Shown here in pieces: positions 45,148 to 64,000 of a DNA stretch of 64,000 nucleotides (position 1 is the first letter of the stretch; each line of letters begins with the position of its first letter). The notes under the pieces were generated by a model that made no database searches, was not told the origin of the DNA, and saw only the letters and a list, made by a program, of their open reading frames with translations. The position numbers and the translations under genes are program-made. Origin of the DNA: Candidatus Phelpsiimicrobium noxiivivens (GTDB taxonomy: Bacteria > Omnitrophota > Gorgyraeia > Velamenicoccales > Velamenicoccaceae); assembly GCA_001873995.1 (NCBI GenBank), contig MNVR01000007.1:1-64000 (forward strand), given 5' to 3'.

Positions 45148-46521
45148 TTGTGGCTAAATAACCTGGTTGCCAAAAAGCATCGCAAAGTGGAGACTGGCAT
45201 AAAAAAAGAATTGATCCTTATTAATCCCCGCCTTTCGTATTTACTCTTCAACTTTCTTCAGGCTTCCGCGCTCGGCAATCCCGTGCCGCATTCTTTGCAT
45301 ACACTATCTGCCCTTACCCCAAAAGACTATAAAATAACGATCATTAATCAGAAACAGCTTTGGTTTAAAAAAGATTTTGTCGGTGAGGTACTTGTAGGCA
45401 TAACGTGTTTGACTGCTGCTGTTGTTGAAGCGTATGAGTTGGCCGATAAGTTTCGTAAAGCAGGATCCTGCGTTGTTCTTGGCGGGCCGCACGTCAGCGC
45501 TTTGCCGGACGAAGCGCTCCTGCATTGCGACAGCGTAGTTATAGGAGAGGCAGAGTCAGCCTGGGGACAAGTAATTAAGGACTACGAGGCAGGCGTGTTA
45601 AAAAATATCTACCAGGGAGAGCCGTTGGAAGATTTTTTTACGCCAGTTTATGATTATTTTCTCCATCTGGCCCCGGGGATCCTCCGCCGCTCAGGTATTC
45701 ATATTGACCGCGGGTGCAAGTACCATTGTGATTTTTGCGCGCGCATTTCTCAATGGCTGCGTTTCATAAAAATAGAACAGGTGATCGAACTCATCAAGCG
45801 TATCAAAAACAGAAAGCGCAACTTTTTTGTCCGTATATTTTTTCGCGGGCCGCTGGCCAGGCCTGTTATAAGGTTTGATTGTGACAATATTTATTCAGAT
45901 CCTTCTTATGCCAAGGAGTTATTTAAGGCGATGATACCGCTCAAGGTAAGGTGGGTGGCTAATTGTTCAATTGATATCGGTTTTGACGATGAGGCCTTGC
46001 GATTGGCTAAGGATAGCGGCTGCCGAGGATTTTTAATCGGGTTTGAGACCATATATCCCACAGAGTACAGCAAGACGTCTCTGCCGCAGTTCCACTCAGC
46101 CGAGGATTACAGGAAGGCCATTGCTAACATAAAGGCTCGCGGGATAACATTTATTGGTTCTTTTATTCTTGGGATAGATAGGTATGGCCACAGGGATTAT
46201 TTGAAATTGCTGTGGTTCCTGATGCGGATCAGGCTTTGGTTCTTTGTATTGACGATCTTGACACCTTTTCCGGGCTCTGCTTTATATACCCGCCTAAAAA
46301 AAGAAGGCCGTATTATTTCATTTGACTGGCGCAAATATATTTTTCTTTTTTGCGTTATCAAACCGAAGCATACGTCAGTTTTGTCCGTATACGCCTGGTA
46401 TTGGTTTATCAGGGTCTTGTCGGTTTTCTTTTCGCCCTACCTTATTTTTCTGATGCTGCTTTTTTTTATGAGCTCGGAAACCGGCTATCGCCTGAGCCGT
46501 TACATCTTCCATGGTTTTTGA
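45148..46521 (+). CDS. B12-binding radical SAM protein
   Basis: The product is about 457 residues. The N-terminal cobalamin-binding-like domain has VGITCLTAAVVEAYELADKF and VVLGGPHVSALPDEALLHCD. The radical SAM motif CKYHCDFC is near residue 193, with DNIYSDPSYAKELF and GFLIGFETIYP further on. A hydrophobic C-terminal region (FFSPYLIFLMLLFFMSS) suggests membrane association. The first codon is TTG and the true start is uncertain. A paralogue (54000-55310) shares the same order of motifs. The substrate is unknown; many of this class modify lipids or cofactors. Confidence 0.88.
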   Translation: MWLNNLVAKKHRKVETGIKKELILINPRLSYLLFNFLQASALGNPVPHSLHTLSALTPKDYKITIINQKQLWFKKDFVGEVLVGITCLTAAVVEAYELADKFRKAGSCVVLGGPHVSALPDEALLHCDSVVIGEAESAWGQVIKDYEAGVLKNIYQGEPLEDFFTPVYDYFLHLAPGILRRSGIHIDRGCKYHCDFCARISQWLRFIKIEQVIELIKRIKNRKRNFFVRIFFRGPLARPVIRFDCDNIYSDPSYAKELFKAMIPLKVRWVANCSIDIGFDDEALRLAKDSGCRGFLIGFETIYPTEYSKTSLPQFHSAEDYRKAIANIKARGITFIGSFILGIDRYGHRDYLKLLWFLMRIRLWFFVLTILTPFPGSALYTRLKKEGRIISFDWRKYIFLFCVIKPKHTSVLSVYAWYWFIRVLSVFFSPYLIFLMLLFFMSSETGYRLSRYIFHGF

Positions 46522-49165: not shown

Positions 49166-50047
49166 ATGGATAAGAAAAAACTAAGCTTGATATTAGCCCT
49201 TGTGTTAGCCGGCACGGGTGTTTTTATGATAAGGAATTATATCGCTCAAACCGAGAAAAAATTCATCAAAGAAGAAAAGAAGGCTTATGTGCTTGTGGCA
49301 ACGGTAAACATAGCCGCCGGCACGACCATTGATTCATCCATGATAAAGTTTGACGCAGTGCCTGAAAGGTATGTCCAGCCCAAAGCGCTTAATTCAGAGA
49401 ATCTTGTCGTAGGCAAGCGTGCGATAGCCGATATCTTTCCTGGAGAGCAGATAATGTCCACCAAACTGACCATTTCAGTAAGGGATATGAGCCTTGCTAT
49501 GAGGACTCCTCAGGGAAAGCGCGCCATCACCGTGACGATTCCTTTGCTTTCAGCGGTAGGCGGCAAGATACGGCCGGGAGATTATGTGGATGTTGTCGGA
49601 ACTTTTTCTTATAACTCGCAGGTTGAAGGTAAGCAGGTAGTTGAGCCTGTCAGCGTGACGTTATTTCAGAACGTTTTGCTGTTGGGTATTGAAGGCGGCG
49701 CGCCCGCGGAGAGGGGTAAGCCCGCCCCCGCTCTTACAGACCTTGTGGTAACGCTCGCGCTCTCGCCAAAAGAAATAGCTCTTTTGACTTACGCGCTTGA
49801 TGGCCAGGGCAGGATAAGGCTTGTTTTAAGGCCGCCGCTGGAAACAGCGGTTGAACCAGTGCCGCCTGTTGAAGTGAACACATTATGGCAGTATGTGTTT
49901 AGTAATCTGGGCCAGGAATTTCTCGCCACAAAAGATGATAAGCCGCACATTGTAAAACAACAGCAGGAAAAGAAGGTTGAACCGCCGCCGGCTCCGTCAA
50001 TGGAGATCTATCGCGGCACGCAAAAGTCCAGCATGATATTAAAATAG
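49166..50047 (+). CDS. cpaB: Flp/Tad pilus assembly protein CpaB (RcpC)
   Basis: The 293-residue protein has an N-terminal membrane anchor (KLSLILALVLAGTGVFMI), a SAF domain (VLVATVNIAAGTTIDSSMI, VVGKRAIADIFPGEQIMS) and the RcpC-type beta domain (GKRAITVTIPLLSAVGGKIR, PGDYVDVVGTF). It is an inner-membrane/periplasmic part of the Tad machine. It sits between the parvulin gene and the secretin gene. Confidence 0.92.
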   Translation: MDKKKLSLILALVLAGTGVFMIRNYIAQTEKKFIKEEKKAYVLVATVNIAAGTTIDSSMIKFDAVPERYVQPKALNSENLVVGKRAIADIFPGEQIMSTKLTISVRDMSLAMRTPQGKRAITVTIPLLSAVGGKIRPGDYVDVVGTFSYNSQVEGKQVVEPVSVTLFQNVLLLGIEGGAPAERGKPAPALTDLVVTLALSPKEIALLTYALDGQGRIRLVLRPPLETAVEPVPPVEVNTLWQYVFSNLGQEFLATKDDKPHIVKQQQEKKVEPPPAPSMEIYRGTQKSSMILK

Positions 50048-50052
50048 CCCAT

Positions 50053-51666
50053 ATGAGACATAAAGCCGCAATATTATTAGGCCGCCATTTTATTGTTTTT
50101 GCCCTGAGCTTTATGGCAGCCGGCTCTGTTTATCCCGAATATTTTTCTGAAGAGTATGGTTCTCCACGCAAGTTGGATATGGTGGTCGGCGAGTCTAAGG
50201 TGTTGGCAGTCTCCAATCCAAAGAGGGTGGCGATCGGAGACCCTGCTGTGGCAGATGTGGCCGGCGCAAGCTCTACAGAGATCATTATTTCGGCAAAGGT
50301 AGCCGGCGAGACGAACCTGCAGGTCTGGGATGATATGGGACAGAGAGAGGTCATCATCAACGTCTTTATTGAAGACCTCACCAAACTAAAAACCAGGTTA
50401 GAAGACTTGTTTTGGACAGCGGGCATACGCGGGATAACATTTCAGGTGGGCGAACAGGAGCGAAAGATATTTGTGCTTGGCGATTTGCCCCTGCGCAAGA
50501 AAGAGGTCGTGACCCAGCTCCTTGGTAATTTTAAAGACAAGATCATTAACCTTCTGACCTATTCCGAAGACAATCCTCTTGTTGAGATGGACGCTCAGAT
50601 TATGGAGATCTCAAAGACCGCTGTTGATAGGCTCGGCATTGACTGGTCGCAAACAGTGACTTTTAATGAGATCCAACCCGGGGCCCCTGCGGCTACGGCA
50701 GGGACAGTATTTCCACAGCATACCCTGGACCGGCAGATGGGCGATCTGCTAAAATCAGTGTGGCAGTCAAAGTTTAACAGGACGACGCTGACCGCCACCC
50801 TGAATATATTAGAGAAAGACAATCTTGCTCGCACGCTGGCGCGGCCTAAACTTGTGGCATTGAGCGGCAGTGAGGCTAAATTTTTGGTGGGTGGGCAGGT
50901 CCCGATTATCGCAAACGTTTCTGTTTCCAGCGGCACAACCACGACCTCCATTGATTACGTTGATTATGGCATAAAGCTTAATGTTAAACCCGAGGTAAAA
51001 GAGACAGGCGATATTCTTTGCAAGATAGAAGTTGAGATAAAGGATATTGATGCCGCAAACTCCATAACTATCCCATCCGGAGGGGGCATCACGACATCGC
51101 CCGGGTTTAAAACGCGGAATGCCTCAACCCAGCTTTATTTAAAAAATAACCAGACGATATTCCTCGCGGGTTTGATCAATAACGCGCAGACTAATGATTT
51201 AAACCAGGTTCCGGGTCTGGGAGATATCCCTATTTTGGGGGCTTTGTTCAGGTCCAAAAATTTTCAAGTTGGCGACACGGAACTTGTCATTTCAATTACG
51301 CCAAGGATAGTAAATTACGGCGATATGCGCCAGGATATACAGGATCTCTCATCGTCTAAAAGAAGCGCGGATGAAGAACCCGCGGATACCTATATCCGCG
51401 CTGTCCAGGAGACGATATTAAAGAACGTCAGTTACCCGCTTGAGGCCCAGCGCGCCAATTTATCTGGCGGTGTGGTGTTGAGCCTGCACTTATTTTCCAA
51501 CGGCCAGCTAGCCGGAGTCGTAGTGAATGAGTCTTCAGGCCATAAGTTACTGGACAACGCCGCGATATTTACTGTAAAGCGGCTCGCTCCTTATCCCGCT
51601 TTTCCCAAGGGCCTGCTGTTAAAAGAGATCTGGGTAGAAGTGCCCATCACATACCAGTTAAGTTAG
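50053..51666 (+). CDS. cpaC: CpaC/RcpA secretin with C-terminal TonB domain
   Basis: The product has 537 residues. After a signal peptide, the BON-like N-domain (VLAVSNPKRVAIGDPAVADV, STEIIISAKVAGETNLQVWD) leads to the secretin part (VEMDAQIMEISKTAVDRLGI, ARPKLVALSGSEAKFLVGGQ, QVPGLGDIPILGALFRSKNF, VISITPRIV). From about residue 446 a TonB C-terminal domain is attached (SYPLEAQRANLSGGVVLSLH, SSGHKLLDNAAIFTVKRLAP). It forms the outer-membrane pore. The TonB domain is not part of standard CpaC and may contact the wall or another envelope partner. Confidence 0.93.
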   Translation: MRHKAAILLGRHFIVFALSFMAAGSVYPEYFSEEYGSPRKLDMVVGESKVLAVSNPKRVAIGDPAVADVAGASSTEIIISAKVAGETNLQVWDDMGQREVIINVFIEDLTKLKTRLEDLFWTAGIRGITFQVGEQERKIFVLGDLPLRKKEVVTQLLGNFKDKIINLLTYSEDNPLVEMDAQIMEISKTAVDRLGIDWSQTVTFNEIQPGAPAATAGTVFPQHTLDRQMGDLLKSVWQSKFNRTTLTATLNILEKDNLARTLARPKLVALSGSEAKFLVGGQVPIIANVSVSSGTTTTSIDYVDYGIKLNVKPEVKETGDILCKIEVEIKDIDAANSITIPSGGGITTSPGFKTRNASTQLYLKNNQTIFLAGLINNAQTNDLNQVPGLGDIPILGALFRSKNFQVGDTELVISITPRIVNYGDMRQDIQDLSSSKRSADEEPADTYIRAVQETILKNVSYPLEAQRANLSGGVVLSLHLFSNGQLAGVVVNESSGHKLLDNAAIFTVKRLAPYPAFPKGLLLKEIWVEVPITYQLS

Positions 51667-51668
51667 AA

Positions 51669-51792
51669 TGACAAATGCCCAATGCTAAACGACAAACGAA
51701 TTACCAAAGACCAATTGAAAGATTTGGAATTGGTGTTTAATTTGCCTGTCTGCCGGCCAGGCAGGGATTTTGTCATTTGGAATTTGTCATTC
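51669..51792. repeat. 7-bp periodic inverted element with nested palindrome
   Basis: The left arm has TGACAAA-type heptamers (51669-51696), then an 11-mer ending CCAA. The right arm has ATTTGG/ATTTGTC units up to 51792. Inside the right arm is a CCTG-TCTGCCGGCCAGGC-AGG palindrome (51745-51765). The layout matches the element at 60491. It separates cpaC from the cpaE-cpaF fusion. Confidence 0.7.
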
Positions 51793-51812
51793 AACCGTTT
51801 TTGCAGGTGATT

Positions 51813-54008
51813 ATGGCAGAAGAACAAGCGCGTATAGGCAATGTTATATCTATTTTTAGTACGAAGGGCGGCGTTGGCAAGACGCTCCTTGCCGTCAACC
51901 TTGCTATTGCCATGGCACAGGAAGGCAAAAAAATAGCGCTTATAGATCTGGATCTCCAGGCCATTCAGGACATGGCCAGGATGATAGACACGACCCCGCA
52001 GTATTCCATCTTTGATATTGTCTCCATTATTGACAAGGTTGAACAATTGGGGAATATAAAAAATTACATGACCCTTGTTCCGGTCGGCATAGATTTTTTA
52101 CCTGCCATTACCAGGCCAAAGCAATCTCCTCATATCACAGGAGATCGTATAAGCAAGATTATATCAATGTTGACACCTATCTATGATTTTATAATAGTGG
52201 ATGGCGGCAGGGCTTTTACAGACAGTCTAATCAGTATCTTCAACCGCTCTAACCTCATACTTTTTATTGTTACTCCTGATATACTTTCTGTTTACGAGAC
52301 GCGCTGGGGGCTTGATGTGCTTCAGTCGCTGCACTTTCCTTTAAAAATGATAAAGCTTCTTTTAAACAGAGCAGAGAGTAAGTCAGGCTTGTCCTGGCAG
52401 GAAGTAAAGCTCGCTTTACCATGCGAGATAATATCAAGTATCCCCAGCGACGGAAGGGTCGTGGGCCTGGCGCTCAACCGCGGCGTGCCCGTGGTCGTTG
52501 ATAACCCATCCAGCCGCGTGAGCGCCGCCATTAAAAAATTCGCGCAGAACCTTATATCCAAGGCCAGTCTTTATATCGCGCATAAAGAAGTTGAAGAACT
52601 CAGGTCAATTAAAAAAGAAGAAATGCCTTCGGCTGGCACTTTTTGGGATGCTATGGGCCTGGCTGACAAGGTCAAATGGATAAAACCCCTTGAGCAGGAA
52701 GATGAGATCATAAAATTAAAGCGCCGCATCCACGCGCGCCTTATTGAAGAGTTGGATTTAAAACGCCTGGATATGGAGTTGATCAATAATCCTAAAAAAG
52801 CAAAAGAGCTCAGGGAAAAAGCCGAAAAGATCGTTACCAATCTGTTGGCTGAAGAGACCGGCGCTTTTTTGTCTTCGTTTGAAGTCCGCGAAAAACTCGT
52901 CAAAGACGTTGCCGATGAAGCGCTGGGGCTCGGGCCGTTAGAAGAACTTATCCGTAATCAGGATATCACGGATATTATGGTCAACAATAAAGACCAGATC
53001 TATATTGAACAACACGGTAAGCTTGAATTGACCAGTAAAAAATTTATCTCTGACGACCAGGTGCGCGTCGTTATTGAGCGTATCATTGCGCCTCTTGGAA
53101 GGCGCATTGATGAATCAGTGCCTATGGTAGATGCGCGCCTGCCTGACGGCTCGCGCGTCAACGCTATCATACCCCCCCTTTCTTTAACAGGCCCGACGTT
53201 GACCATAAGGAAATTCGCCAGAGAGCATTATACGGTGGAAGACCTTATCTCACGTTTTTATAGCCTTGATAAAAATATAGCTGATTTTCTTTCTGCTTGT
53301 GTTATGTTCAGGAAGAACGTGATCGTTTCCGGAGGGACAGGTTCAGGAAAGACCACCTTTTTAAATATACTTTCCACTTTTATCCCGAACGACGAAAGGA
53401 TAGTCACCATTGAAGACGCCGCTGAATTGCGCTTAAACCAAGAACACTGGGTGCGCTTAGAGTCAAGGGCTCCCAATATAGAAGGTAAGGGCGCTATTAC
53501 TATCCGCGACCTTTTCCGTAATTGCCTAAGAATGAGGCCCGACCGCATTATAATAGGTGAGTGCCGCGGAGGCGAGGTATTAGATATGCTTCAAGCCATG
53601 AACACAGGCCACGACGGCTCCATGACTACCATTCACGCTAATTCTACGCGCGACGTTTTGTCTCGTCTTGATTCTATGATACTTATGAGCGGGGTGGAGC
53701 TGCCCATACGCGCCATCCGCGAAATGACCGCTTCTGCTATTGACCTTGTTGTCCAGACCGCCAGGCTTTCCGACGGCTCAAGAAAGATAACGCAGGTAAC
53801 AGAGATAGCCGGCATGGATGACGAAACACATATCAAGTTTGCCGATATTTTTCGCTTTAAGCAGCTCTCCATTGATAAAGAACATAATAATAAAGTCATC
53901 GGGAAATTCATAGCCACAGGGCATATCCCGTCCTTCTATGACGAATTGGTCACCCGCGGCATCAACCTTTCCAAAGATATCTTTATCTCCACTGAAACCC
54001 TAAAATAA
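51813..54008 (+). CDS. CpaE-CpaF fusion (TadZ-like ATPase joined to TadA secretion ATPase)
   Basis: The product has 731 residues from ATG 51813; an in-frame ATG at 51777 lies inside the upstream repeat. Residues 1 to about 265 are a ParA/MinD-type domain: deviant Walker A STKGGVGKTLLAVNLAIAM, then KIALIDLDLQAIQDM. From about residue 290 follows a CpaF/TadA ATPase: LEELIRNQDITDIMVNNKDQ, Walker A SGGTGSGKTTF (about residue 506), RMRPDRIIIGECRGGEVLDM and MTTIHANSTRDVLSRL. CpaE localises and CpaF powers the pilus. They are normally separate genes, so this fusion ties position to power. Confidence 0.93.
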   Translation: MAEEQARIGNVISIFSTKGGVGKTLLAVNLAIAMAQEGKKIALIDLDLQAIQDMARMIDTTPQYSIFDIVSIIDKVEQLGNIKNYMTLVPVGIDFLPAITRPKQSPHITGDRISKIISMLTPIYDFIIVDGGRAFTDSLISIFNRSNLILFIVTPDILSVYETRWGLDVLQSLHFPLKMIKLLLNRAESKSGLSWQEVKLALPCEIISSIPSDGRVVGLALNRGVPVVVDNPSSRVSAAIKKFAQNLISKASLYIAHKEVEELRSIKKEEMPSAGTFWDAMGLADKVKWIKPLEQEDEIIKLKRRIHARLIEELDLKRLDMELINNPKKAKELREKAEKIVTNLLAEETGAFLSSFEVREKLVKDVADEALGLGPLEELIRNQDITDIMVNNKDQIYIEQHGKLELTSKKFISDDQVRVVIERIIAPLGRRIDESVPMVDARLPDGSRVNAIIPPLSLTGPTLTIRKFAREHYTVEDLISRFYSLDKNIADFLSACVMFRKNVIVSGGTGSGKTTFLNILSTFIPNDERIVTIEDAAELRLNQEHWVRLESRAPNIEGKGAITIRDLFRNCLRMRPDRIIIGECRGGEVLDMLQAMNTGHDGSMTTIHANSTRDVLSRLDSMILMSGVELPIRAIREMTASAIDLVVQTARLSDGSRKITQVTEIAGMDDETHIKFADIFRFKQLSIDKEHNNKVIGKFIATGHIPSFYDELVTRGINLSKDIFISTETLK

Positions 54009-55310
54009 TCTGCTCTTGAGAAAGCTTGTGAAATAAAAGGCGAGATAAAACTCGGCGAGGACTTGTAGCTCCATTATTATAAAATATGGCGAGGCCAAAA
54101 GCCCAACGACTCGCAAGGCTATAAACCATAGCGAGAGCGATAGGGCGCACATATGTTTGGGCCTGAAAACTACATGGTGCAAAGAGTCATATTTTCGCCA
54201 ATCAAATGTTGTAATGCGGTTTTCATGCTTAAGCCGCTCATAGAGTTGCGAGGCAGGAAAAGGTGTTAAGATAGTGAGGGAAATTGAATACAGCCCTGAC
54301 CGTATCAGAAACCACATGAGCCTTAGATAATCCTTGTGAGTATAATAATCAAACCCTAGTATAAAGGCACCCGTGACTTTTATATGATAGGATCTTATTT
54401 TCTTAATAGCCTTTATGTAATCGTCTGTTGAGCGCATGTGGCCGGTTGAAGTTTTTTGAAGCTTTTGAGGGTAGATCGTTTCAAAGCCTATAAAGAGGCT
54501 TTTACACCCGCTTGCTTTGGCTGCTTTTAGCGCTTCATCATCAAATGCTATGTCAATAGAGCTATTGCCCGTCCAGTTCAGGCGCAAAGGCGATAGGCCC
54601 GCGAATAATCTTTTAGCGTATTCCGGGCTTGAGAAGATATTGTCGTCCCTGAACATGATGGTTGGTTTCAGGCCGAATGGCAATTGAACACCATCTCTGA
54701 CTTTTTTAACAAGAGAGAGCGCCTGATCCAGTTTGATGAGGCGAAGCCCTCCGGAATGCGGGACACAAAAATCACAGTGGTATTTACACCCGCGGCTAAG
54801 TAAGATCCCTGTTTTGTATAATATCCGCGGGTTAATTTTTAAGAAGTAATTGTAGCTGGGTGAAAAGTAGTCTGCGAGGGGCTCACCTTTATAGGCCTGC
54901 CTGAGTGTTTTATTTTCATAGTCTCGCACTAAATCAGGCCAAACGGATTCTGCTTCGCCAATAACAACACTGTTGCAATGTTGTAGCGCTTCCTGTGGGA
55001 AATAGCTTGGATGAAGCCCGCCCATAATAACTGTAGAGCCTGCCTTACGGAAACGGTCAGCTATTTTGTATGCTTCATAAGAATTAGATGTAGCGCAGGA
55101 TATCCCTACCAGACTGCCGCCTATAAAATCTTTATTTGACCAAAACAGTTTTTGATTATATATTTTGATCGTATAGTCTTCAGGAGTAAGGGCAGGAAGT
55201 ATAAAAAGAGAAAAAGTAGCAGGGGCATTGTAGAATAAACTAAGAGTAAAGCGAATGACAGGGTGGCTGGTAGAAGGTAATATAAGTATGAGCTTTTTTT
55301 TCGCGGCCAT
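54000..55310 (-). CDS. B12-binding radical SAM protein, paralogue
   Basis: The 436-residue protein has the same layout as the one at 45148: LVGISCATSNSYEAYKIADR, VIMGGLHPSYFPQEALQHCN, SRGCKYHCDFCVPHS, FRDDNIFSSPEYAKRLF, SLFIGFETIYPQKL and a hydrophobic C-terminal part. It is convergent with cpaE-cpaF and overlaps its end by 9 bases. Its position inside the pilus locus may be chance or may mark a modification linked to the pilus. The substrate is unknown. Confidence 0.88.
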   Translation of the reverse strand: MAAKKKLILILPSTSHPVIRFTLSLFYNAPATFSLFILPALTPEDYTIKIYNQKLFWSNKDFIGGSLVGISCATSNSYEAYKIADRFRKAGSTVIMGGLHPSYFPQEALQHCNSVVIGEAESVWPDLVRDYENKTLRQAYKGEPLADYFSPSYNYFLKINPRILYKTGILLSRGCKYHCDFCVPHSGGLRLIKLDQALSLVKKVRDGVQLPFGLKPTIMFRDDNIFSSPEYAKRLFAGLSPLRLNWTGNSSIDIAFDDEALKAAKASGCKSLFIGFETIYPQKLQKTSTGHMRSTDDYIKAIKKIRSYHIKVTGAFILGFDYYTHKDYLRLMWFLIRSGLYSISLTILTPFPASQLYERLKHENRITTFDWRKYDSLHHVVFRPKHMCALSLSLWFIALRVVGLLASPYFIIMELQVLAEFYLAFYFTSFLKSRLF

Positions 55311-55432: not shown

Positions 55433-55789
55433 ATGGGAGTTGCCTACCACAAAGCCATAAATGTTACAACAGGTGAAATCATAGCCGACAATGTCAGAAT
55501 TGCCCAGGATTTTATGAGCCGCTCGATTGGGCTCTTAAATAGGCAAAATTTAAATGAAAATGAGGCTTTGCTTATCAAACCTTGCCCATCCATACATACC
55601 TTTTTCATGAAGTTCCCCATTGATGTCTTATTCCTGTCCAAAGAAGGCAATATAGTAAAGATCGCGCATTCTTTGAAACCATGGAGACTATCTGGTTGTT
55701 TACTAGGCTGTTTCATGGTATTAGAGCTCCCGCCTGGCAAGGTATTAAAAACAACAATAAAGCTTGGAAATGTAATTGAAATATGCTAA
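55433..55789 (+). CDS. DUF192 family protein
   Basis: The 118-residue protein has IAQDFMSRSIGLLNRQNLNE, SIHTFFMKFPIDVLFLSKEG and the Cys-containing stretch WRLSGCLLGCFMVLELPPGK, all typical of DUF192. The family is often encoded near pilus and secretion loci, but its function is not established. No signal peptide is seen, whereas many homologues are exported. It lies between the divergently read radical SAM gene and a transposase-like gene. Confidence 0.82.
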   Translation: MGVAYHKAINVTTGEIIADNVRIAQDFMSRSIGLLNRQNLNENEALLIKPCPSIHTFFMKFPIDVLFLSKEGNIVKIAHSLKPWRLSGCLLGCFMVLELPPGKVLKTTIKLGNVIEIC

Positions 55790-55858: not shown

Positions 55859-57421
55859 ATGTCCAAAACATCAAAAATAACACAGAATATAAGGAATTAT
55901 GTTCTTTCAAGAAAAAGAAAGAATTGTAATATAAGCTGTAGAACAATTGCAGATGAAACGGGTGACAAGTTTAAGATGATCATATCAAAATCAAGCGTAA
56001 ACGTGATCTTAAAAGGCGCAAGATTAAGTAGCCCTGTAGGCCGTAATGTTGCTAAGATCTATAGGCCCAGCGGAGAAACTGATGGCGCGGGATACGCGTT
56101 CCTTTTGGCTGCAAATTATTTGTTGGGTTTTTCCAGGATATTGGCTACTACTTTGCGTAAGTTGGCGCCGTCTATTCGTATGAAATGGGATACTTTGGAG
56201 GCGATTAGCGAGGCCTGGATCATGGCGCGGGCTGTTTACAATGTGCCACTTGCAAAAATTGAAAATTACAATAAAAATGACCTTTGGTTTATTACCGGTA
56301 GAAAAGCTAATAAAGGCCTGTTAAAACAGTATATTAACGCCTTCATTGATACACAACATATTGGCTATCAATTAGTTAGCGAAATTGCTCATGTTCTGCA
56401 GGATGTCCATTATCTTAAAATTTATCTGGCTGATAACACATTTTATATGTTAGACGGCCAGCTCAAAAGCGTTTGGAAAGACGCCAAAATACCAATTGAT
56501 TATTGTACAACAATAGATATTGCAAATAGTTATATAAACAAAAAAATTTTTGGATCTGAGCCATTTGTTGTTTTCAATGCGTTTCCTGAGACAGTGCTGG
56601 GAGATGAGATATCAGATTTTATTTTTAGCATAGACGGTTCTTTAAGCCAAAAGAGGATAAGAAAGATAGAACTTATTGCGCCACAAGGTGTTATAATAAA
56701 AGAAATACCTTTTGTGGTTCCTGAAAGGCGCAATTTTATTCTTGGTATCTGGCCTTGGCAGTATAAATTGATCGCTGATCTTGAAAAGCGAAAGACAGCG
56801 GCTAAAATTTTTATTGATGGCATTGGACAGGAATTTTATTTGTGCGAGGACCGGGCAAGATTCGCGCAACATGCTAATAATATTGATGTTATGTTAAGGC
56901 TTATTGTCATAAAAAGCACCAAAGATGGCCCGGCCTTGCTGGGCGTTTTTACTAACGCAGATCAAGAAAGCTGGACAGCGGCGCGTGTCGTGGAACGCTA
57001 TCTGCGCCACTGGCCGGATGTTGTCGTCGGGCATAAGCTATTTTTAAGAGCTTCTAAAATGCCCCTATATCTTGAAGATTTTATATCTTCGGAAAAAATG
57101 TTTGTTAACGCCAAGAAGATAAATGAGACGAATGATCCGGACGCGTGGTTCTTGATACTCGTGGAGATTTTGAATGATTTTTGCAAAAGAAATTTTTTTC
57201 CTGAGGTGTGCGCGTCCTGGAGCTTGCTTAAGATGAGAGAGCTGTTTTATAAACAGAGGGGCTTCATAAAGAGAGATATGGATGAGGATATTTTATTTAA
57301 GTTATTTAACTCCAATATGTTAGAAGAAAAAGATATTACCAATTTTGCTTCCGCGAAGTTTAACGAAGCCAATATTTTTGATAGCTCTGGCAGGCAGCTC
57401 CGAATAATTTCTGCCGCATAA
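55859..57421 (+). CDS. Transposase-like protein of unknown family
   Basis: The 520-residue protein has an N-terminal part like a helix-turn-helix (NCNISCRTIADETGDKF). The middle has IKIYLADNTFYMLDGQLKSV-like strands with acidic residues and FIDGIGQEFYLCEDRARF. Near residue 390 is VVERYLRHWPDVVVGHKLF, reminiscent of the RY-x-x-RW segment of IS4-like DDE transposases. No flanking inverted repeats are seen. It may be a transposase, or a domesticated derivative in the pilus locus. Family assignment is uncertain. Confidence 0.45.
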   Translation: MSKTSKITQNIRNYVLSRKRKNCNISCRTIADETGDKFKMIISKSSVNVILKGARLSSPVGRNVAKIYRPSGETDGAGYAFLLAANYLLGFSRILATTLRKLAPSIRMKWDTLEAISEAWIMARAVYNVPLAKIENYNKNDLWFITGRKANKGLLKQYINAFIDTQHIGYQLVSEIAHVLQDVHYLKIYLADNTFYMLDGQLKSVWKDAKIPIDYCTTIDIANSYINKKIFGSEPFVVFNAFPETVLGDEISDFIFSIDGSLSQKRIRKIELIAPQGVIIKEIPFVVPERRNFILGIWPWQYKLIADLEKRKTAAKIFIDGIGQEFYLCEDRARFAQHANNIDVMLRLIVIKSTKDGPALLGVFTNADQESWTAARVVERYLRHWPDVVVGHKLFLRASKMPLYLEDFISSEKMFVNAKKINETNDPDAWFLILVEILNDFCKRNFFPEVCASWSLLKMRELFYKQRGFIKRDMDEDILFKLFNSNMLEEKDITNFASAKFNEANIFDSSGRQLRIISAA

Positions 57422-57528: not shown

Positions 57529-57558
57529 TTGACATATATGTATATAATATGATATATT
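57529..57558 (+). promoter_or_regulatory. Pilin array promoter
   Basis: A perfect TTGACA (57529-57534), an 18-base spacer and TATATT (57553-57558) start the pilin cluster. The surrounding sequence is very AT-rich. The expected leader to the first pilin is about 180 bases. Confidence 0.7.
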
Positions 57559-57745: not shown

Positions 57746-57943
57746 ATGAGATTAAAAAAGTTTTTCAAAAGCTGTAGTTTAAGAAATGGCGGCCAAGCTA
57801 TCGTAGAGTATTTTATTTTGCTTGTCCTCATAGCTGCTCTTACAATTATTGGAGGTTCTGTTTTGTTCGGCAAGGTAAAAACAACAACTAACAATTTCAG
57901 GGACGCAGCTTATGAGAAAATGGCTCCATATCCGGGCCCGTAA
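57746..57943 (+). CDS. Flp-type pilin 1
   Basis: The 65-residue protein has a basic leader ending NGG and then QAIVEYFILLVLIAALTIIG, the prepilin peptidase site (G before Q, Glu at +5 in this numbering) plus hydrophobic helix of Flp/Tad pilins. The tail is short (YEKMAPYPGP). An ATG at 57737 is also possible. It is the first of nine tandem pilin genes. Confidence 0.8.
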   Translation: MRLKKFFKSCSLRNGGQAIVEYFILLVLIAALTIIGGSVLFGKVKTTTNNFRDAAYEKMAPYPGP

Positions 57944-57972
57944 GTATAACAATTTTATATCAGAGCGTTGCC

Positions 57973-58125
57973 ATGAATAAAAGAGCTGGCCAGTCAGTTT
58001 TGGAATACGCAATCTTAATATCTGCTTTATGCGCTGTTTATATTACCATGTCAGCTTATATGCATCATGCTGTGAATGCAAAATTGCTTTCTGTGCAGGA
58101 CAGGGTTAATGAAGCGGTGCGATAG
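57973..58125 (+). CDS. Flp-type pilin 2
   Basis: The 50-residue protein MNKRAGQSVLEYAILISALC has a 5-6 residue leader cut after Gly and the Q-S-V-L-E-Y-A pilin start, then AVYITMSAYMHHAVNAKLLS. It is below routine ORF length limits. A weak GTTGCC precedes the ATG. Pilin-like in every feature except its very short tail. Confidence 0.78.
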   Translation: MNKRAGQSVLEYAILISALCAVYITMSAYMHHAVNAKLLSVQDRVNEAVR

Positions 58126-58133
58126 GAGTTCGT

Positions 58134-58346
58134 ATGAGTCATGTGAAGAAATTGTTCAGCGCGGGACAATCAGTTTTAGAATACGCGATGTTGCTTGCTA
58201 TTGTCAGCGCGGCCTTTATAACTATGGCCGTTTATGTGAGAAGGGCTATGCAGGGCCAGCTTTATCAAATTGAAAAGAGGACTGTTGCAAAGGCAGAGGT
58301 AAATACGTATGCAACGTCCGATGGTTGTCCGCCAATGTGTATTTGA
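58134..58346 (+). CDS. Flp-type pilin 3
   Basis: The 70-residue protein (SHVKKLFSAGQSVLEYAMLL) has the cleavage site after AG. The helix continues AIVSAAFITMAVYVRRAMQG. Two cysteines close to the C terminus (DGCPPMCI) could form a disulfide. The ribosome binding site GGAG lies 7 bases upstream. Confidence 0.82.
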   Translation: MSHVKKLFSAGQSVLEYAMLLAIVSAAFITMAVYVRRAMQGQLYQIEKRTVAKAEVNTYATSDGCPPMCI

Positions 58347-58388
58347 TGGGCGCGTTATTCCTGCCAGAGGCGGGCTCAAGGAGAAAAC

Positions 58389-58562
58389 ATGAGAACTAAA
58401 AAAGGTCAGATAATGATTGAATACGCGGTTATGTTCACGGTAATAGTCGCGGCTGTAATAGTTGCCTCAATTATGTTGATCAAACCGTCTTTGAACAAAT
58501 TTTTTGGTACGACAGCAAGGGTTATTGACAACGCGTCTACCAGGGTTGAAAGCAATTTTTAA
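58389..58562 (+). CDS. Flp-type pilin 4
   Basis: The 57-residue protein MRTKKGQIMIEYAVMFTVIV continues AAVIVASIMLIKPSLNKFFG. The IKPSLNKFFG segment is shared with pilin 5 and sets these two apart from the Y-x-x-RG-x-QG type. Cleavage after KKG is expected. It is too short for routine ORF lists. Confidence 0.8.
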   Translation: MRTKKGQIMIEYAVMFTVIVAAVIVASIMLIKPSLNKFFGTTARVIDNASTRVESNF

Positions 58563-58645
58563 TCCAGAAAGGATAGGCCTGCTCAATTCCATTAAGGGCA
58601 GGGCCTAATGAAATATTCCGGAGGGAGAGAGGGGGTGGAAAACAG

Positions 58646-58912
58646 ATGAAGAAAGTGTTTGGCAGGGTAGGGCAAAGCACGTTGGAATATGTAATAGTGT
58701 TGACGGCGATCGTGGCGGCTATTCTTTTTGCAGCCGCGCAGTTTATCAAACCGTCTGTTAACAAAATATACGGCGATGCTGGTACAACGTTGAATGCGAG
58801 CGGAACGTTGTTTGGTAATGCCGTAGGCGGAGGTTTGAACCTTACAGCAGGCGCGGCAGCAGGCGCGGCAGCAGGCGCGGCAGGCGCGGCAGCCGGTTCA
58901 ACCGCGATATAG
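58646..58912 (+). CDS. Flp-type pilin 5 with Ala/Gly repeat tail
   Basis: The 88-residue protein (KKVFGRVGQSTLEYVIVLTA) has IKPSVNKIYGDAG after the helix, like pilin 4. The tail is a low-complexity AGAA-type sequence encoded by tandem 12-bp repeats (58847-58891). A strong GGAGGGAG ribosome binding site lies upstream. Confidence 0.8.
   Translation: MKKVFGRVGQSTLEYVIVLTAIVAAILFAAAQFIKPSVNKIYGDAGTTLNASGTLFGNAVGGGLNLTAGAAAGAAAGAAGAAAGSTAI
58847..58891. repeat. In-frame 12-bp tandem repeat in pilin 5
   Basis: GCAGGCGCGGCA occurs three times in a row (58847-58882), followed by a 9-bp partial copy. Each unit encodes AGAA, so changes in copy number keep the frame and change only tail length. Confidence 0.8.
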
Positions 58913-58956
58913 TAAGAAACGCCAGATTTTTTTGGCGAGAGGAGGTGTTAACGAGA

Positions 58957-59310
58957 ATGCTTAGATGGTTAAACGCAAAGAGAGGCCAGAATACAGCCGA
59001 ATACGCTATCCTTATCGGTGTTATCGTGGCAGCGGCTATCGCTATGCAGATATATATAAGGCGCGGTATGCAGGCCAGAATAAAAGATGCTGTTGATTTT
59101 ACCAGGACAGCGGATGACGACGCGGGCAACGGATTGTTTAATCAGAGCCAGTATGAGCCGTATTATCTGAATACCACTTTTGCAACGACTCAGAGCGGCA
59201 CGAAGAGCCAAGAATTGCAGGTGGGCGGCGGTGTTGTTGTGAACGCTATCAGCGAAGGGACGCAGAGGTCAGGGAACCAGACATACTCTAATTATATGCT
59301 GGGTAACTAA
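58957..59310 (+). CDS. Flp-type pilin 6 (long tail)
   Basis: The 117-residue protein from ATG 58957 (GGAGG 11 bases upstream) has AKRGQNTAEYAILIGVIVAA and the QIYIRRGMQARIKDAVDF continuation. The tail of about 70 residues is Thr/Ser/Asn/Gln-rich. A GTG at 58945 is a less likely start. Confidence 0.85.
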   Translation: MLRWLNAKRGQNTAEYAILIGVIVAAAIAMQIYIRRGMQARIKDAVDFTRTADDDAGNGLFNQSQYEPYYLNTTFATTQSGTKSQELQVGGGVVVNAISEGTQRSGNQTYSNYMLGN

Positions 59311-59341
59311 CAAATAAGCAAATTTAAGGAGGTGAAAATAG

Positions 59342-59659
59342 ATGCGCAAGTGTTTTAGTAAAAGAGGCCAGAGCACTCTTGAGTACGCGGTTTTAATAGT
59401 AGTCATAATCGCGGCTCTTATAGCTATGCAGGTATATTTAAAGCGTGGCATACAGGGCCGCATGAGAGAATCTTCTGACCAAATAGGAGAGCAGTTTTCA
59501 CCGGGTTACACAGTTTCTAACCGCGTGACGAACACGTTCTCGAACACGCTGGAAACAACGGACGCGTATTCTACAACGACGGAGATACTAAATCAGTTCC
59601 AGAACGTGACCGGAGCAGAGAACGTAATGGCGGCTGCTAATGAGTACTGGGGAAAGTAA
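59342..59659 (+). CDS. Flp-type pilin 7 (long tail)
   Basis: The 105-residue protein (KCFSKRGQSTLEYAVLIVVI) continues MQVYLKRGIQGRMRESSDQI. The tail is Thr/Asn-rich (NTFSNTLETTDAYSTTTEIL). An ideal AAGGAGGTG precedes the ATG. Its last base overlaps the next start (TAATG). Confidence 0.87.
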   Translation: MRKCFSKRGQSTLEYAVLIVVIIAALIAMQVYLKRGIQGRMRESSDQIGEQFSPGYTVSNRVTNTFSNTLETTDAYSTTTEILNQFQNVTGAENVMAAANEYWGK

Positions 59660-60093
59660 TGTTAAGAAAATACGCGAACACTTTGACTGCGCTCAGTGTA
59701 AACAGACAGAGTAATGCAAGGGCGCGCGCCCTCCGCGCGCCCGCATTATTCTGTCTGTGGCGCGGCGTGAGAGCTTGTCTTGAGCGCAACCGAAGGGGCC
59801 AACAGGCCATAGAATACGCTGTGTTGATATCAGCTATCATCGCGGCTTTATTATTCATGTATATGTACGCTAGGCGTGGATTGCAGGCGGCTATAAAATC
59901 GTCGGCTGACCAGATAGGCCCGCAGAGCCACAACGAGCCTTTGGCCGGGGTTGTGAAGACAACAGGCAATGCCACCATGTCAACAGTTACAAACGATTTG
60001 ACGCAGGTCAATAAGATCGGAGAGGAAACATATTATGATTATCAATCCGTCTCAACATCGCAGGGGCTTTCGGAGACGCATACGCAGGAGTGA
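59659..60093 (+). CDS. Flp-type pilin 8 with hairpin-encoded leader extension
   Basis: The 144-residue protein has RRGQQAIEYAVLISAIIAAL at about residue 45, so its leader is about 45 residues instead of 5-15. Most of the extra leader is encoded by a large inverted repeat (59702-59758). Because the leader is removed by prepilin peptidase, the mature pilin is unaffected. The tail carries QIGPQSHNEP and a Thr/Asn-rich part. Confidence 0.83.
   Translation: MLRKYANTLTALSVNRQSNARARALRAPALFCLWRGVRACLERNRRGQQAIEYAVLISAIIAALLFMYMYARRGLQAAIKSSADQIGPQSHNEPLAGVVKTTGNATMSTVTNDLTQVNKIGEETYYDYQSVSTSQGLSETHTQE
59702..59758. repeat. Large inverted repeat in the pilin 8 leader
   Basis: ACAGACAGAGTAATGC-AA-GGGCGCGC pairs with GCGCGCCC-GCATTATTCTGTCTGT, a 24-bp stem with a two-base bulge and one G-U around a 7-base loop. 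It is flanked by a TTTGACTGCGCTCAG copy (59682) and its inverted counterpart (TTGAGCGCAACCGAAGG, about 59781), related to the unit at 61960. Confidence 0.8.
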
Positions 60094-60097
60094 TTAG

Positions 60098-60478
60098 ATG
60101 ATGCGAAAAAGAGGCCAATCCGTTATGGAAACAGCTGTTCTTATATTAATTATTGTAAGCGCTCTTATAGCTATGCAGGTCTACTTAAAGCGCGGCATAC
60201 AGGGCCGCTTGAGAACCAGCATTGACAGTATAGGCGAACAGTATGACCCGCAGGCAACAAGCTCAAATTTTACTGTAGGCCACACTAGCAATGTAGAGAC
60301 AACAACGAACACAAGCACACAGCAAAAGGTTGTGAGCGGCGGCTATGATGACCTGGGTGGCGGGATGTGGACCGGCGCTCCTCCTGTAAAGGAAAATGTT
60401 ATTACAACAGACTCAAGGATCGAAATATATTATGACAACACAACAAAAACCGGCTATGAGACTGTCGCAAACCCATAA
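60098..60478 (+). CDS. Flp-type pilin 9
   Basis: The 126-residue protein starts MRKRGQSVMETAVLILIIVS; it has Thr where the other eight pilins have Tyr after the conserved Glu. It shares MQVYLKRGIQGRLRTSIDSI with pilin 7. The tail is Thr/Ser/Asn-rich with two Gly-rich turns. ATG 60098 or the adjacent ATG at 60101 may be used. Confidence 0.85.
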   Translation: MMRKRGQSVMETAVLILIIVSALIAMQVYLKRGIQGRLRTSIDSIGEQYDPQATSSNFTVGHTSNVETTTNTSTQQKVVSGGYDDLGGGMWTGAPPVKENVITTDSRIEIYYDNTTKTGYETVANP

Positions 60479-60489
60479 TTGAAGAAGAA

Positions 60490-61836
60490 ATGACAAATGC
60501 CAAATTTCAAATGACAAATGGAGCCCCAATGACCAAAGTCAAATTTAAAAATTTGTATTTGGGATTTCGTTTGGGTTTTGGATCTGGGATTTCGAGATCA
60601 TATAAAGGACAGGCCTTGGTTGAGCTGGCTGTGTTCGGCGCATTTTTTCTTATACTGCTGGGCGTTTTGTTATCTTATGGCCTTAAATATAACTTTCAGC
60701 AAAAGGCCCAGATGACAGTTTTCAGGCGCGCTTTAAAAATAGCTTCAGATCAAGGCAGAGGCATTGGCGCCGCGATGATTTTGGAGGACCGCGCTATACC
60801 CGATCCAACTACGATGTTTGGCATAGGTTTTACCGCTCCCATTGTGGCTTCAGCTTCAGTCCAGCGCGATCATATGATGCATGCCCAGCCTGTTGACGAG
60901 GATTCCTTAAGCGGAACTGTGATGGATATTCAGACAAGCCGAGACGGCTCAGAGGAGACACAGGCGTGGATGCGGCGCATATATAAGACAGCTGCTTTTC
61001 GGGTTGAATATTTGGTGCCCAAAGAAAACTTAGACAAATATCGGGAGATCTTTGGCTCCTCTCTCCTTGCTTTGAAAAGCGGCGGTTCAATAGAGGATCA
61101 GGGCTCATGGGCGTCAACGAGTGACGATGAAGCTGATATGACTCTTCTGGAAAACGGTAGCAAAGCCTATACTGCCATAAGGATTATTGATACCTGCTCC
61201 GGAGAAATTTCTGATTATGATACTTGTTATACACAGGCGCGCCAGTTGGTAGATCCGGAATTTTGCAAGAGAAAATGTGAGCTGGCTAAGGGGCCAGGTT
61301 CTGATACTGACTGCGCCAGCGTATGCAATATTGAAACTAATCCGCCAAACCAGACGGACAGAATATATGACGACTTAAAGGGAGGCGCCTGGTATGCGGC
61401 AGATTGGGAGGGTCCACAGCCTTCTGTCGCGCCTCCTGCCGTGCAGGTAAATCCTAACTATAACTTTCCATATTTAAGCGGATATAAAAACGATGGGACT
61501 ATTGTGCCGGCATTATTCAGCTTTTCAGGGGCGAGGTCCGCGGGTGACCCAGTGAAGCAAATGGCCATGGGCCTTCATAGCGATATGACACAAAATGTTG
61601 TAAGAAACGAATCAATGGCCAAGACAGAGACGACAGGCGCTATCTCAACGCAGGAAGACGCTGTTTGGACGGATACATTGAATAGAACGCTCGTCCATCA
61701 GGATAATATAAATGCCAACGGATTTGAAAAGATCCCGGCTTCCGGACAACCGGGTGATTTCGTAAACGTGAGAACGCGCAATGTTGTGTCAGATGTTTCT
61801 GGTTCATTGAGCCAGGCGCAGGTGACTGTAAAATAA
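60490..61836 (+). CDS. TadE-like pseudopilin with repeat-derived N terminus
   Basis: The 448-residue protein has YKGQALVELAVFGAFFLILL near residue 39, a prepilin-type signal with Glu, then GLKYNFQQKAQMTVFRRALK. The large C-terminal part contains two Cys clusters (CSGEISDYDTC; CKRKCELAKG...CASVC). The first ~35 residues (MTNAKFQMTNGAPMTKVKF and on) are encoded by a periodic repeat element, so the present start codon lies in the repeat. TadE-like minor pilins help pilus assembly. Confidence 0.82.
   Translation: MTNAKFQMTNGAPMTKVKFKNLYLGFRLGFGSGISRSYKGQALVELAVFGAFFLILLGVLLSYGLKYNFQQKAQMTVFRRALKIASDQGRGIGAAMILEDRAIPDPTTMFGIGFTAPIVASASVQRDHMMHAQPVDEDSLSGTVMDIQTSRDGSEETQAWMRRIYKTAAFRVEYLVPKENLDKYREIFGSSLLALKSGGSIEDQGSWASTSDDEADMTLLENGSKAYTAIRIIDTCSGEISDYDTCYTQARQLVDPEFCKRKCELAKGPGSDTDCASVCNIETNPPNQTDRIYDDLKGGAWYAADWEGPQPSVAPPAVQVNPNYNFPYLSGYKNDGTIVPALFSFSGARSAGDPVKQMAMGLHSDMTQNVVRNESMAKTETTGAISTQEDAVWTDTLNRTLVHQDNINANGFEKIPASGQPGDFVNVRTRNVVSDVSGSLSQAQVTVK
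60491..60594. repeat. 7-bp periodic inverted element providing a gene start
   Basis: TGACAAA-type heptamers (60491-60518) and an 11-mer ending CCAA form the left arm. ATTTGG-, TTTGG- and GGGATTTCG-type units form the right arm up to about 60594. The ATG at 60490 begins one base before the first heptamer. Confidence 0.7.
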
Positions 61837-61902: not shown

Positions 61903-62265
61903 ATGAAAGAAAAAATGTCAATAAAAATATTGAATTGGCAAACTGACAGAGGGCAGGCCATTCGACTACGCTCAGGGCAAGCAACCCTGGAGTTGACAGT
62001 GGCGCTGATACTTATCGTGATACTTTTGATGGCTGGGGTTAAGGTATTCCTTTGGCTCAACGAAGGCTTGGTGCACAGACAAGTTTCTTATGAAAATACG
62101 CGCGTTGCAGCAGGGAACACATCGCCAGAAACAGTCAGTTTGGATGCTTACTTGGATAATGTTGAACCGCAAGATTTGGTGATAAGAGGCGCAAATGGTG
62201 GCACGGAGGTAGATTTCAATGAACCATTTAATGCGACATTTAATATCTTTGCAACATCTAACTAA
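61903..62265 (+). CDS. TadE-like pseudopilin with inserted REP unit at the cleavage site
   Basis: The 120-residue protein from ATG 61903 contains DRGQAIRLRSGQATLELTVA then LILIVILLMAG. The block IRLRSGQA is an exact 24-bp insertion (61960-61983) of a REP-like unit. Because the insert ends in GQA, a G-Q-A-T-L-E-L prepilin site is kept. The tail continues VKVFLWLNEGLVHRQ. The next gene starts inside its 3' end. Confidence 0.82.
   Translation: MKEKMSIKILNWQTDRGQAIRLRSGQATLELTVALILIVILLMAGVKVFLWLNEGLVHRQVSYENTRVAAGNTSPETVSLDAYLDNVEPQDLVIRGANGGTEVDFNEPFNATFNIFATSN
61960..61983. repeat. REP-like unit inside a prepilin leader
   Basis: ATTCGACTACGCTCAGGGCA (plus AGCA) encodes IRLRSGQA in frame. The same unit, degenerate, flanks the large hairpin at 59702-59758 and may occur at 3729. 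Confidence 0.7.
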
Positions 62266-64000
62266 GGCAAAGAGCAAGAGCGGGCAAATCGCTACACTTC
62301 TCTTATTGTCCCTGGTCATTATGTTGATATTTGTCATGGTCACTGTGAACCTTGGCAATGTCGCGGTTGATGCGACAAAAATTGCCAATGCCGCGGATAG
62401 CGCTGTGCTTCAATTGGCCTCTAATCTATCCACAAAGGCGAGGATGCTGTATGAGGGGTTGGGGAATAGATATGAGAAGTGCCAAAAGACAGGGTATCTT
62501 GCTTTGGCTGCGGCTGTTGTCGCTGCCATAATAGTAACAGTAGCGAGTCACGGAGCCGCGTCTCCATATGCTGTAGCTTTTGTAGCAGCTGTTGCCGGTG
62601 GCATAGGAGGTGCGATTGCAGGAACCGGTTGGGCACAGGGCGCTGTTACAGGCGCAGCAGTTGGTTTTTCCATAGGTTCTCTTGGAGCTAGCTTTGCTGC
62701 AGACGTTGAAGCCGGAGGATCAGGTATCGCAGGAGCGGGCACAGAATTAAATTGTGCCGGAGCAACATTTACATTCACTGTTCCAGTTGTTGTCTTAACT
62801 CCAGCCGCTGCTTTCGCTGCCGCGGGTTTAGCTGCTACAGTTTACAACGCATCTGTGCAGGATAAAATACCTTCTACATTACTATCTCAACTTCAAAAAG
62901 ACCTTTCTAAATTGGAGGAAAAAGACCGTTTTCGCGAGAGCGCATTTTATACGGCGTTAACACAAGTGGTTGATGATCCTAATGTTCATGCGGATACCGA
63001 TGATATAAATGCTAATACAAACACAACTGAATTTATATCACGGTTTGCCTGGTGGTGGCACAGCAGGCTGACGCAGTTTGCAAAAGTGCGAAATGAGCAG
63101 GTAGCGCCCCTGAATGAGTTTTTAACAGAAATGAGAGATTTTCGGGATTTTGCGTATCAGGCTTATGCTGGCAAAGGTTATGCTGAAAAGATCCACTCCT
63201 CGGGTTATTTGGAGAGAGCAGATTATAAATGGAGCGTTGATGACGAGGGTAGCGAAGTAGTTGTTACTGGAGCGGATATAGGCGTAGTGGATGGCCTGAT
63301 TGTGGGCTTACTGCGGTCCCTTCACGCGTTTAATTTTGATACAACAATGAAAGACGGGTCTCTAATATGGAAACCGGGCCCTGCTCCCAAGGACGTGTAT
63401 ACTTGGGCTGACGAAGAGTGCGGCTCCGTAGAAGAAGGCAGCGGTAAGTGTTCTCCGCCGCCATCCAGCTTTGACTATTTAGATTTGATAGCCGACGATT
63501 TGCGGGAAATGGTTGGGTTTATGAACGGCGTTGTCCCTCCTGCTTTTCAAGAGTGGGTTGAAATGCAGTGTGGCAATGTTAATTCAGGGGGATGTGGAAC
63601 GGAGGATTTTTGGAGTCACTCGTGGGTAGCTAATCTGCAGGCGCAGTATAATGAATTAATAGCAAATTCTAATGCTCTCGCGGGCTGGGATGGCTGGAGG
63701 TATTATTTTTATGATCCAGAGAACCCGGCTGACACAGGCACATATTACGTTCAACTTAAAGCATACATTGATATTCTGACGAGTTTGAAAAGAGAGCTCA
63801 TTGATATCAGGAGCAAGCGCTTGCCTGTATGCCAGGAAGGTATTTATGATACGGTCAATCCGTTGGTTTGCAATGTTTGTGCCAGCGCTTGTGATGTGTC
63901 TATGTGCACAGGCCCCGGCTGTTCTTGGAGCCCGTATCTGGACGATGGAACTTTTTATTGGCATTGCGTGTCTCTTTGCAGCGCTTGTGTGTTGAATCCT
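62219..64000 (+). CDS. TadG-like pilus assembly protein, partial (runs off window edge)
   Basis: An open frame of 594 codons begins at ATG 62219, overlapping the previous gene by 47 bases, and continues past 64000. SKSGQIATLLLLSLVIMLIF near residue 22 and VTVNLGNVAVDATKIANAAD, then SAVLQLASNLSTKARML, match the N-terminal TadE/TadG-like (PF13400-type) region. A Gly/Ala-rich hydrophobic stretch follows at about residues 95-210. The last part seen is Cys-rich (CNVCASACDVSMC, CVSLCSAC). It is probably the large wall/pilus-associated component of the locus. Confidence 0.8.
   Translation, partial: MNHLMRHLISLQHLTKAKSKSGQIATLLLLSLVIMLIFVMVTVNLGNVAVDATKIANAADSAVLQLASNLSTKARMLYEGLGNRYEKCQKTGYLALAAAVVAAIIVTVASHGAASPYAVAFVAAVAGGIGGAIAGTGWAQGAVTGAAVGFSIGSLGASFAADVEAGGSGIAGAGTELNCAGATFTFTVPVVVLTPAAAFAAAGLAATVYNASVQDKIPSTLLSQLQKDLSKLEEKDRFRESAFYTALTQVVDDPNVHADTDDINANTNTTEFISRFAWWWHSRLTQFAKVRNEQVAPLNEFLTEMRDFRDFAYQAYAGKGYAEKIHSSGYLERADYKWSVDDEGSEVVVTGADIGVVDGLIVGLLRSLHAFNFDTTMKDGSLIWKPGPAPKDVYTWADEECGSVEEGSGKCSPPPSSFDYLDLIADDLREMVGFMNGVVPPAFQEWVEMQCGNVNSGGCGTEDFWSHSWVANLQAQYNELIANSNALAGWDGWRYYFYDPENPADTGTYYVQLKAYIDILTSLKRELIDIRSKRLPVCQEGIYDTVNPLVCNVCASACDVSMCTGPGCSWSPYLDDGTFYWHCVSLCSACVLNP

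Follow-up and report, generated by a model that had tools for sequence, protein, structure and literature searches.

What kind of fibre does a Tad (type IVc) pilus locus build when it holds a row of nine pilin genes? The question is raised by a 64,000-nucleotide stretch of Candidatus Phelpsiimicrobium noxiivivens (contig MNVR01000007.1, positions 1 to 64,000; hereafter the window), taken from a metagenome-assembled genome (MAG) of 1.56 Mb and 91% completeness. Between positions 57746 and 60478, nine prepilin genes lie back to back on the forward strand, inside a complete Tad locus. Each product has a basic leader, a G|Q-x-x-x-E site, and a hydrophobic helix, and all nine qualify as class III prepilins (Gly or Ala before the cut, Glu at +5, hydrophobic helix). 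The array is not a product of chance, because a strict scan for the prepilin motif over the full window returned these nine genes, two TadE-like genes, and nothing else. Pilins 2 to 9 each begin at most 83 bp behind the preceding gene (pilin 8 when read from its ATG start; ∼107 bp from its GTG start). Pilins 1–4 measure 50–70 amino acids (aa), pilin 5 measures 88 aa, and pilins 6–9 measure 105–126 aa. An earlier note on this DNA had described nine tandem Flp-type pilins of several types with a common G|Q...E(Y) start, and all nine open reading frames (ORFs) were indeed found there, each with the prepilin motif. The types were also recovered: pilins 1 and 2 are short, 4 and 5 carry IKPS(L/V)NK, and 6–9 combine Y-x-x-RG-x-Q(G/A) with tails rich in Thr, Ser, and Asn. 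The common start applies to the set with the exception of pilin 9, which has E-T, and the Cys pair reported for pilin 3 is present (CPPMC) but not conserved, being missing in the orthologues of G005 and G003. The count of nine holds for the array; a tenth Flp-like pilin, conserved in G003–G006, has to be added from past the window end, where it lies between TadG and TadB/C (C32:64961-65161).

The Pfam model for Flp pilins, Flp_Fap (PF04964), gave no match in a search of the genome, and pilins 1–9 stayed below its cut-off (best score 17.3 versus 32.2 bits). As the pilins are nevertheless present, absence of a Pfam match cannot be considered evidence of absence. A profile of Omnitrophota pilins (A3) was aligned with one built from ordinary Flp pilins of other phyla (A6, of whose 20 rows 17 match PF04964) at a probability of 97.5 and an E value of 6.8e-12. 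Homology of the array pilins to ordinary Flp pilins, which usually measure about 50–80 aa (PMC12075869; a size that pilins 6–9 exceed), is thus clear from the profiles, and A3 detects Omnitrophota pilins that Pfam misses. Neither a PDB sequence search with the pilin profile nor a plasmid search with pilin 7 returned a match. Several arrays (L052, L050, L043, and others) frequently have Ala in place of Gly immediately ahead of the cleavage site, and in G040 and G020 this position is Ala or Ser in nearly all array pilins.

Five genomes of the same family, from three other genera, keep the array, with the slots in the same order. G004 and G006 have nine slots each, G005 has nine and one extra, and G003 has nine when slot 8, read from a gap, is counted; G007 shows eight, its contig being broken inside slot 8 (nine profile matches overall). 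No pilins were found in G002, whose contig stops just behind CpaE-CpaF. In a tree built from mature residues 1–42 (few columns, many unresolved forks), the slot labels require 11 changes, close to the minimum of 10 and far from the mean of 44.6 after shuffling. Because the tree groups the pilins by slot and not by genome, the slots are plainly old paralogues, not recent copies, and their order has been kept over four genera. Decay of the other pilins in all relatives, which the earlier note had said would refute it, was not observed; all slots persist in the family. The same data bear on alternative pili or antigenic variation, in which the genes would be expressed one or few at a time, or would recombine. 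Many paralogues, variable tails, and a copy number differing among genera could be expected of such a system, but slot order and identity are the same over genera, the slots are not homogenised, and DNA repeats between the copies are only weak, which renders switching improbable. Furthermore, the region has one good promoter-like site, its best, before pilin 1, and pooled ratios of nonsynonymous to synonymous substitution (dN/dS) are well below 1. Alternative pili, which the earlier note had also considered, are accordingly less well supported, as nothing points to switching.

Arrays of this kind recur across the class. The profile search detected pilins in 173 of 384 class genomes, with a median of 8, a maximum of 15, and at least 6 in 140 of the 173, all counts being lowered by assembly breaks; the genome-wide number for the genome under study rests on the same search (9 matches in G000). 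Most other bacteria have one to three pilins beside the Tad machine. In 77 Tad loci of other phyla, pilin-like ORFs formed runs of no more than 5, even with TadE/F-like genes included, versus runs of 7, 8, and 11 in the three Omnitrophota loci of the same sample, a comparison that covers 10-kb flanks and one motif and misses pilins sited elsewhere. The view that so many pilins are unusual for a Tad locus is therefore borne out. In 36 Omnitrophota arrays, the usual order of types is A (slot 1, sometimes), B (2/3), C (4/5), D (6), E (7), more E (8, 9), TadE, and TadE′, followed by TadG. Type D occurs in 35 and type E in all 36 of them, although types outside the family were called by similarity over 40 residues, some rows (e.g., L086, G047) are misplaced, and arrays may be broken or wrongly ordered in MAG assemblies. 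In arrays with more than one D, an E directly follows almost every D. The unit C-D-E occurs twice in G107 and G263 and is partly repeated in G343, and L086:15198-17377 holds three tandem D+E pairs, a triplication that looks recent because the helices of the E copies are almost identical. D and E are neighbours 45 times versus 23 in shuffled arrays; as this count is inflated by common descent, weight was put on the D-E and C-D-E duplications, which look like several events.

The fraction of Ser, Thr, and Asn in the tails of pilins 6–9 is 0.29–0.35, whereas 70-aa windows of the other ORFs of the genome average 0.15 (99th percentile, 0.29). In same-genus pairs, dN of the tails was 1.7- to 3.3-fold that of the helices, and pooled dN/dS was 0.12–0.20 for tails and 0.05–0.17 for helices. 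The fast evolution attributed to the tails by the earlier note is consequently only half of the picture: they change faster than the helices, yet their low pooled ratios point to purifying selection, and they appear constrained, as slot-specific motifs are widely kept (QYEPYY in D; G-E-Q-F/Y and a C-terminal EYW in many E). In more distant comparisons, synonymous sites have reached saturation, so positive selection is not claimed. Slot 8 evolves fastest (dN/dS up to ∼0.55), and slot 1 is strongly diverged, which, together with the copy number varying in the class, could be taken to mean that duplication left mostly redundant copies with no roles of their own. Such neutral expansion is very improbable: all slots are open and in the same order over several genera, pooled dN/dS in same-genus pairs is 0.05–0.20, and the types recur throughout the class. 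Between G004 and G006, helix dS is 0.15–0.21 in slots 5–7 and 0.4–1.2 in the other slots, a pattern that may reflect codon constraint or recombination.

The strength of the predicted ribosome binding sites differs among the slots. In six family genomes, the mean Shine-Dalgarno match was 8.7 nt for slot 6 and 10.0 nt for slot 7, and between 0.6 and 5.3 nt for the others; in 30 other arrays, it was 7.0 for D, 7.2 for the E after D, 6.3 for C, 4.5 for later E, and 4.3 for TadE (baseline for the other ORFs of the genome, 4.0). Behind pilin 7, the transcript is predicted to fold into a strong hairpin (Table 1), which is trailed by repeat-like sequence up to position 59788; in G003 and G005, the pilin 8 leader holds different repeat-like stretches. 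Hairpins are enriched behind the E after D in 34 arrays (per-array Wilcoxon p 2e-4, 100 nt). These signals suggest strong translation of a core made up of C, D, and the first E, which the hairpin after pilin 7 may separate from the weaker genes downstream. Whether this core comprises one major pilin or several is the point on which the main rival explanation turns. According to it, one pilin (most likely 7 or 6) forms the shaft, and the others form a minor stack of initiation, adapter, and tip pilins, as in the Kil system of Myxococcus xanthus, a Tad-type pilus described as having one major pilin and fourteen minor ones, with adapters and tips (PMC12075869). Slot 7 has the strongest Shine-Dalgarno match and a near-invariant helix, and TadE, TadE′, and TadG provide a tip set. 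However, slot 6 nearly equals slot 7 in its Shine-Dalgarno match, C is also high throughout the class, and D was duplicated jointly with E. In the Kil system, moreover, the pilins are distributed over several clusters with four tip sets, whereas here there is one array and one TadE/TadE′/TadG set (TadE1 has one match in the genome; tip clusters at a distance were not sought). A shaft of one major pilin is a plausible but less probable alternative.

The explanation we favour, with a probability of roughly one half, is a multi-subunit Tad fibre, in which C, D, and E would be abundant shaft subunits and the remainder minor or tip pilins. It is favoured because the slots are ancient and ordered over four genera, the arrays occur throughout the class with a consensus order of types, D-E and C-D-E were duplicated together, Shine-Dalgarno peaks and hairpins mark the same genes, a single prepilin peptidase was detected in the genome, and other type 4 filaments offer examples of mixed shafts. 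The heteropolymeric or multi-component fibre proposed by the earlier note likewise fits with the operon-like spacing, conserved order, module duplications, and ribosome binding site strength. The nine pilins would be made together, processed by the one peptidase, and passed to a common machine (CpaB, CpaC, CpaE-F, TadB/C) that would build a single fibre from them. Pilins 4/5, 6, and 7 (C, D, and E after D) would be abundant in its shaft, the surface of which would be covered by the Thr/Ser/Asn-rich tails of D and E. Types A and B, the later E (8, 9), the pilin behind TadG, and TadE/TadE′/TadG would act as initiating, adapter, or tip subunits of low abundance, and the hairpin behind pilin 7 may raise the share of the core in the transcript.

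Several points weigh against a mixed shaft. Characterised Tad pili have one major pilin and are regarded as its polymers, with a small tip. All results were computed from sequence, the statistics, unless stated otherwise, assume independence of related genes and are inflated by relatedness, and a Shine-Dalgarno match is a poor proxy for protein amount. Codon usage, compared with that of the ribosomal operon, gave no signal of high expression for any pilin, and AlphaFold2 models of pilins 6 and 7, with only the helix reliable (a low-confidence β hairpin in the tail of pilin 7), are too weak to be used. No report of a mixed Tad shaft was found in the open-access papers to which the literature search was limited. 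The stricter version, an obligate heteropolymer in which C, D, and E would be co-major, each at a fixed place in the helical lattice and beneath a Thr/Ser/Asn-rich coat, is rather unlikely; no one pilin would then be the major one of this Tad filament. Irrespective of that version, a class-wide array of distinct Flp-like pilins provides a natural test of mixed Tad shafts and bears on how contact organelles diversify in ultra-small, apparently host-dependent bacteria.

Canonical Tad/Flp loci (Aggregatibacter, Caulobacter, and others) share the Tad machine genes, the class III site, and the homologous pilin helix, but usually have few pilins, compared with nine plus one, long-tailed types, and a CpaE-CpaF fusion here. 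Bdellovibrio also has several Flp pilins that are not interchangeable, three being needed for predation, yet only four flp genes, two of them in the tad operon, a complement called the largest known in 2017 (PMC5430801). The precedents for shafts of two similar subunits, PilE1/PilE2 of Streptococcus sanguinis (PMC6916266) and the archaellum of Methanocaldococcus villosus (PMC11178815), are not Tad filaments and have larger pilins and a composition established by experiment, whereas that of the Omnitrophota fibre is predicted from genes. Within the phylum, Tad genes of 'Velamenicoccus archaeovorus' were reported to be expressed in co-culture with the archaeon Methanosaeta, by analogy with which cell–cell contact is the likely use of the fibre; in the sections available, that survey covers TadBC/RcpA in this and other Omnitrophota and does not discuss pilin number (PMC10066038).

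Table 1. Features of the Tad locus in the window.
Feature	Position	Strand	Evidence
CpaB/RcpC	49166..50047	+	PF16976 E 1.2e-18
CpaC secretin with C-terminal TonB_C domain	50053..51666	+	PF00263 E 3.6e-45, PF03544 E 2.2e-14
CpaE-CpaF fusion (ParA-like domain and assembly ATPase)	51777..54008	+	PF10609/PF13614 and PF00437 in single ORF
DUF192 protein	55433..55789	+	PF02643 E 5.7e-21; adjoins array in most loci compared
520-aa protein, transposase-like helix-turn-helix (HTH), possible regulator	55859..57421	+	Conserved neighbour of array
Promoter-like site upstream of array	57529..57558	+	11/12 consensus positions; consensus match only
Pilin 1 (type A, short)	57746..57943	+	ORF with prepilin motif; orthologues in family and G008
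Pilin 2 (type B, short)	57973..58125	+	Prepilin motif; own slot clade in tree
Pilin 3 (type B, C-terminal Cys pair, not conserved)	58134..58346	+	Prepilin motif, tree
Pilin 4 (type C)	58389..58562	+	Prepilin motif; PF04021 E 1.2e-4, just under cut-off; tree
Pilin 5 (type C, Ala/Gly-rich tail)	58646..58912	+	Prepilin motif, tree; helix identical in G004-G007
Pilin 6 (type D, QYEPYY in tail; candidate core subunit)	58957..59310	+	8-nt Shine-Dalgarno match, strong in relatives too
Pilin 7 (type E; candidate core subunit)	59342..59659	+	11-nt Shine-Dalgarno match; helix near-invariant across genera
Strong RNA hairpin between pilins 7 and 8	59702..59758	+	-56.6 kcal/mol, z -6.4 (59660-59770)
Pilin 8 (type E)	59767..60093 (GTG) or start ATG 59659	+	Shine-Dalgarno weak or none in relatives; highest dN/dS
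Pilin 9 (type E, long tail, E-T in place of E-Y)	60098..60478	+	Prepilin motif, tree
TadE-like minor pilin	60490..61836, start possibly 60571	+	Weak TadE match; prepilin motif; orthologues in 17/59 genomes
TadE′-like (second TadE-like) minor pilin	61903..62265	+	Prepilin motif; position conserved
TadG-like protein	62219..64000, continues past window	+	PF13400 E 6.1e-6; full length 762 aa

The components of a Tad locus were all found (CpaB, secretin, CpaE, CpaF, TadB/C, TadE/G, and a prepilin peptidase), the peptidase on a separate contig, C19, and the TadB/C genes downstream of the array (C32:65521 and 66599). Two more CpaF-like ATPases are encoded on contig C22, where no prepilin-like ORFs were found in the 20 kb examined and the genes look housekeeping. 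On its 5′ side, the array is preceded by CpaB, secretin, CpaE-CpaF, a radical S-adenosylmethionine (SAM) gene on the opposite strand, the DUF192 gene, and that of the 520-aa protein. CpaE and CpaF are fused here and in 21 of 58 relatives. Among named organisms, the fused protein has its nearest relatives in Candidatus Omnitrophota MAGs, which makes it almost certain that the window belongs to Omnitrophota. In most of the Omnitrophota Tad loci compared, the gene immediately before the array encodes the 520-aa protein; this protein is present in 16 of 59 relatives, all of them with CpaE and CpaF fused, is absent from every genome that lacks the fusion, and is single-copy except for two split hits. 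It has no Pfam match, and its HTH shows weak matches to transposase HTH models. The protein may have arisen from a domesticated transposase and may regulate the pilin operon, the role being a guess. The radical SAM gene (54000-55310) was not found in the loci of relatives and is therefore probably outside the Tad system. Together with another at 45148-46521, it encodes one of two radical SAM/B12-binding proteins of similar layout that flank the Tad machine genes on opposite strands. Directly behind TadB/C follows an ORF of at least 2589 aa (L040:5233-12999; C32:67232 onward); giant ORFs are reported from Omnitrophota (PMC10066038).

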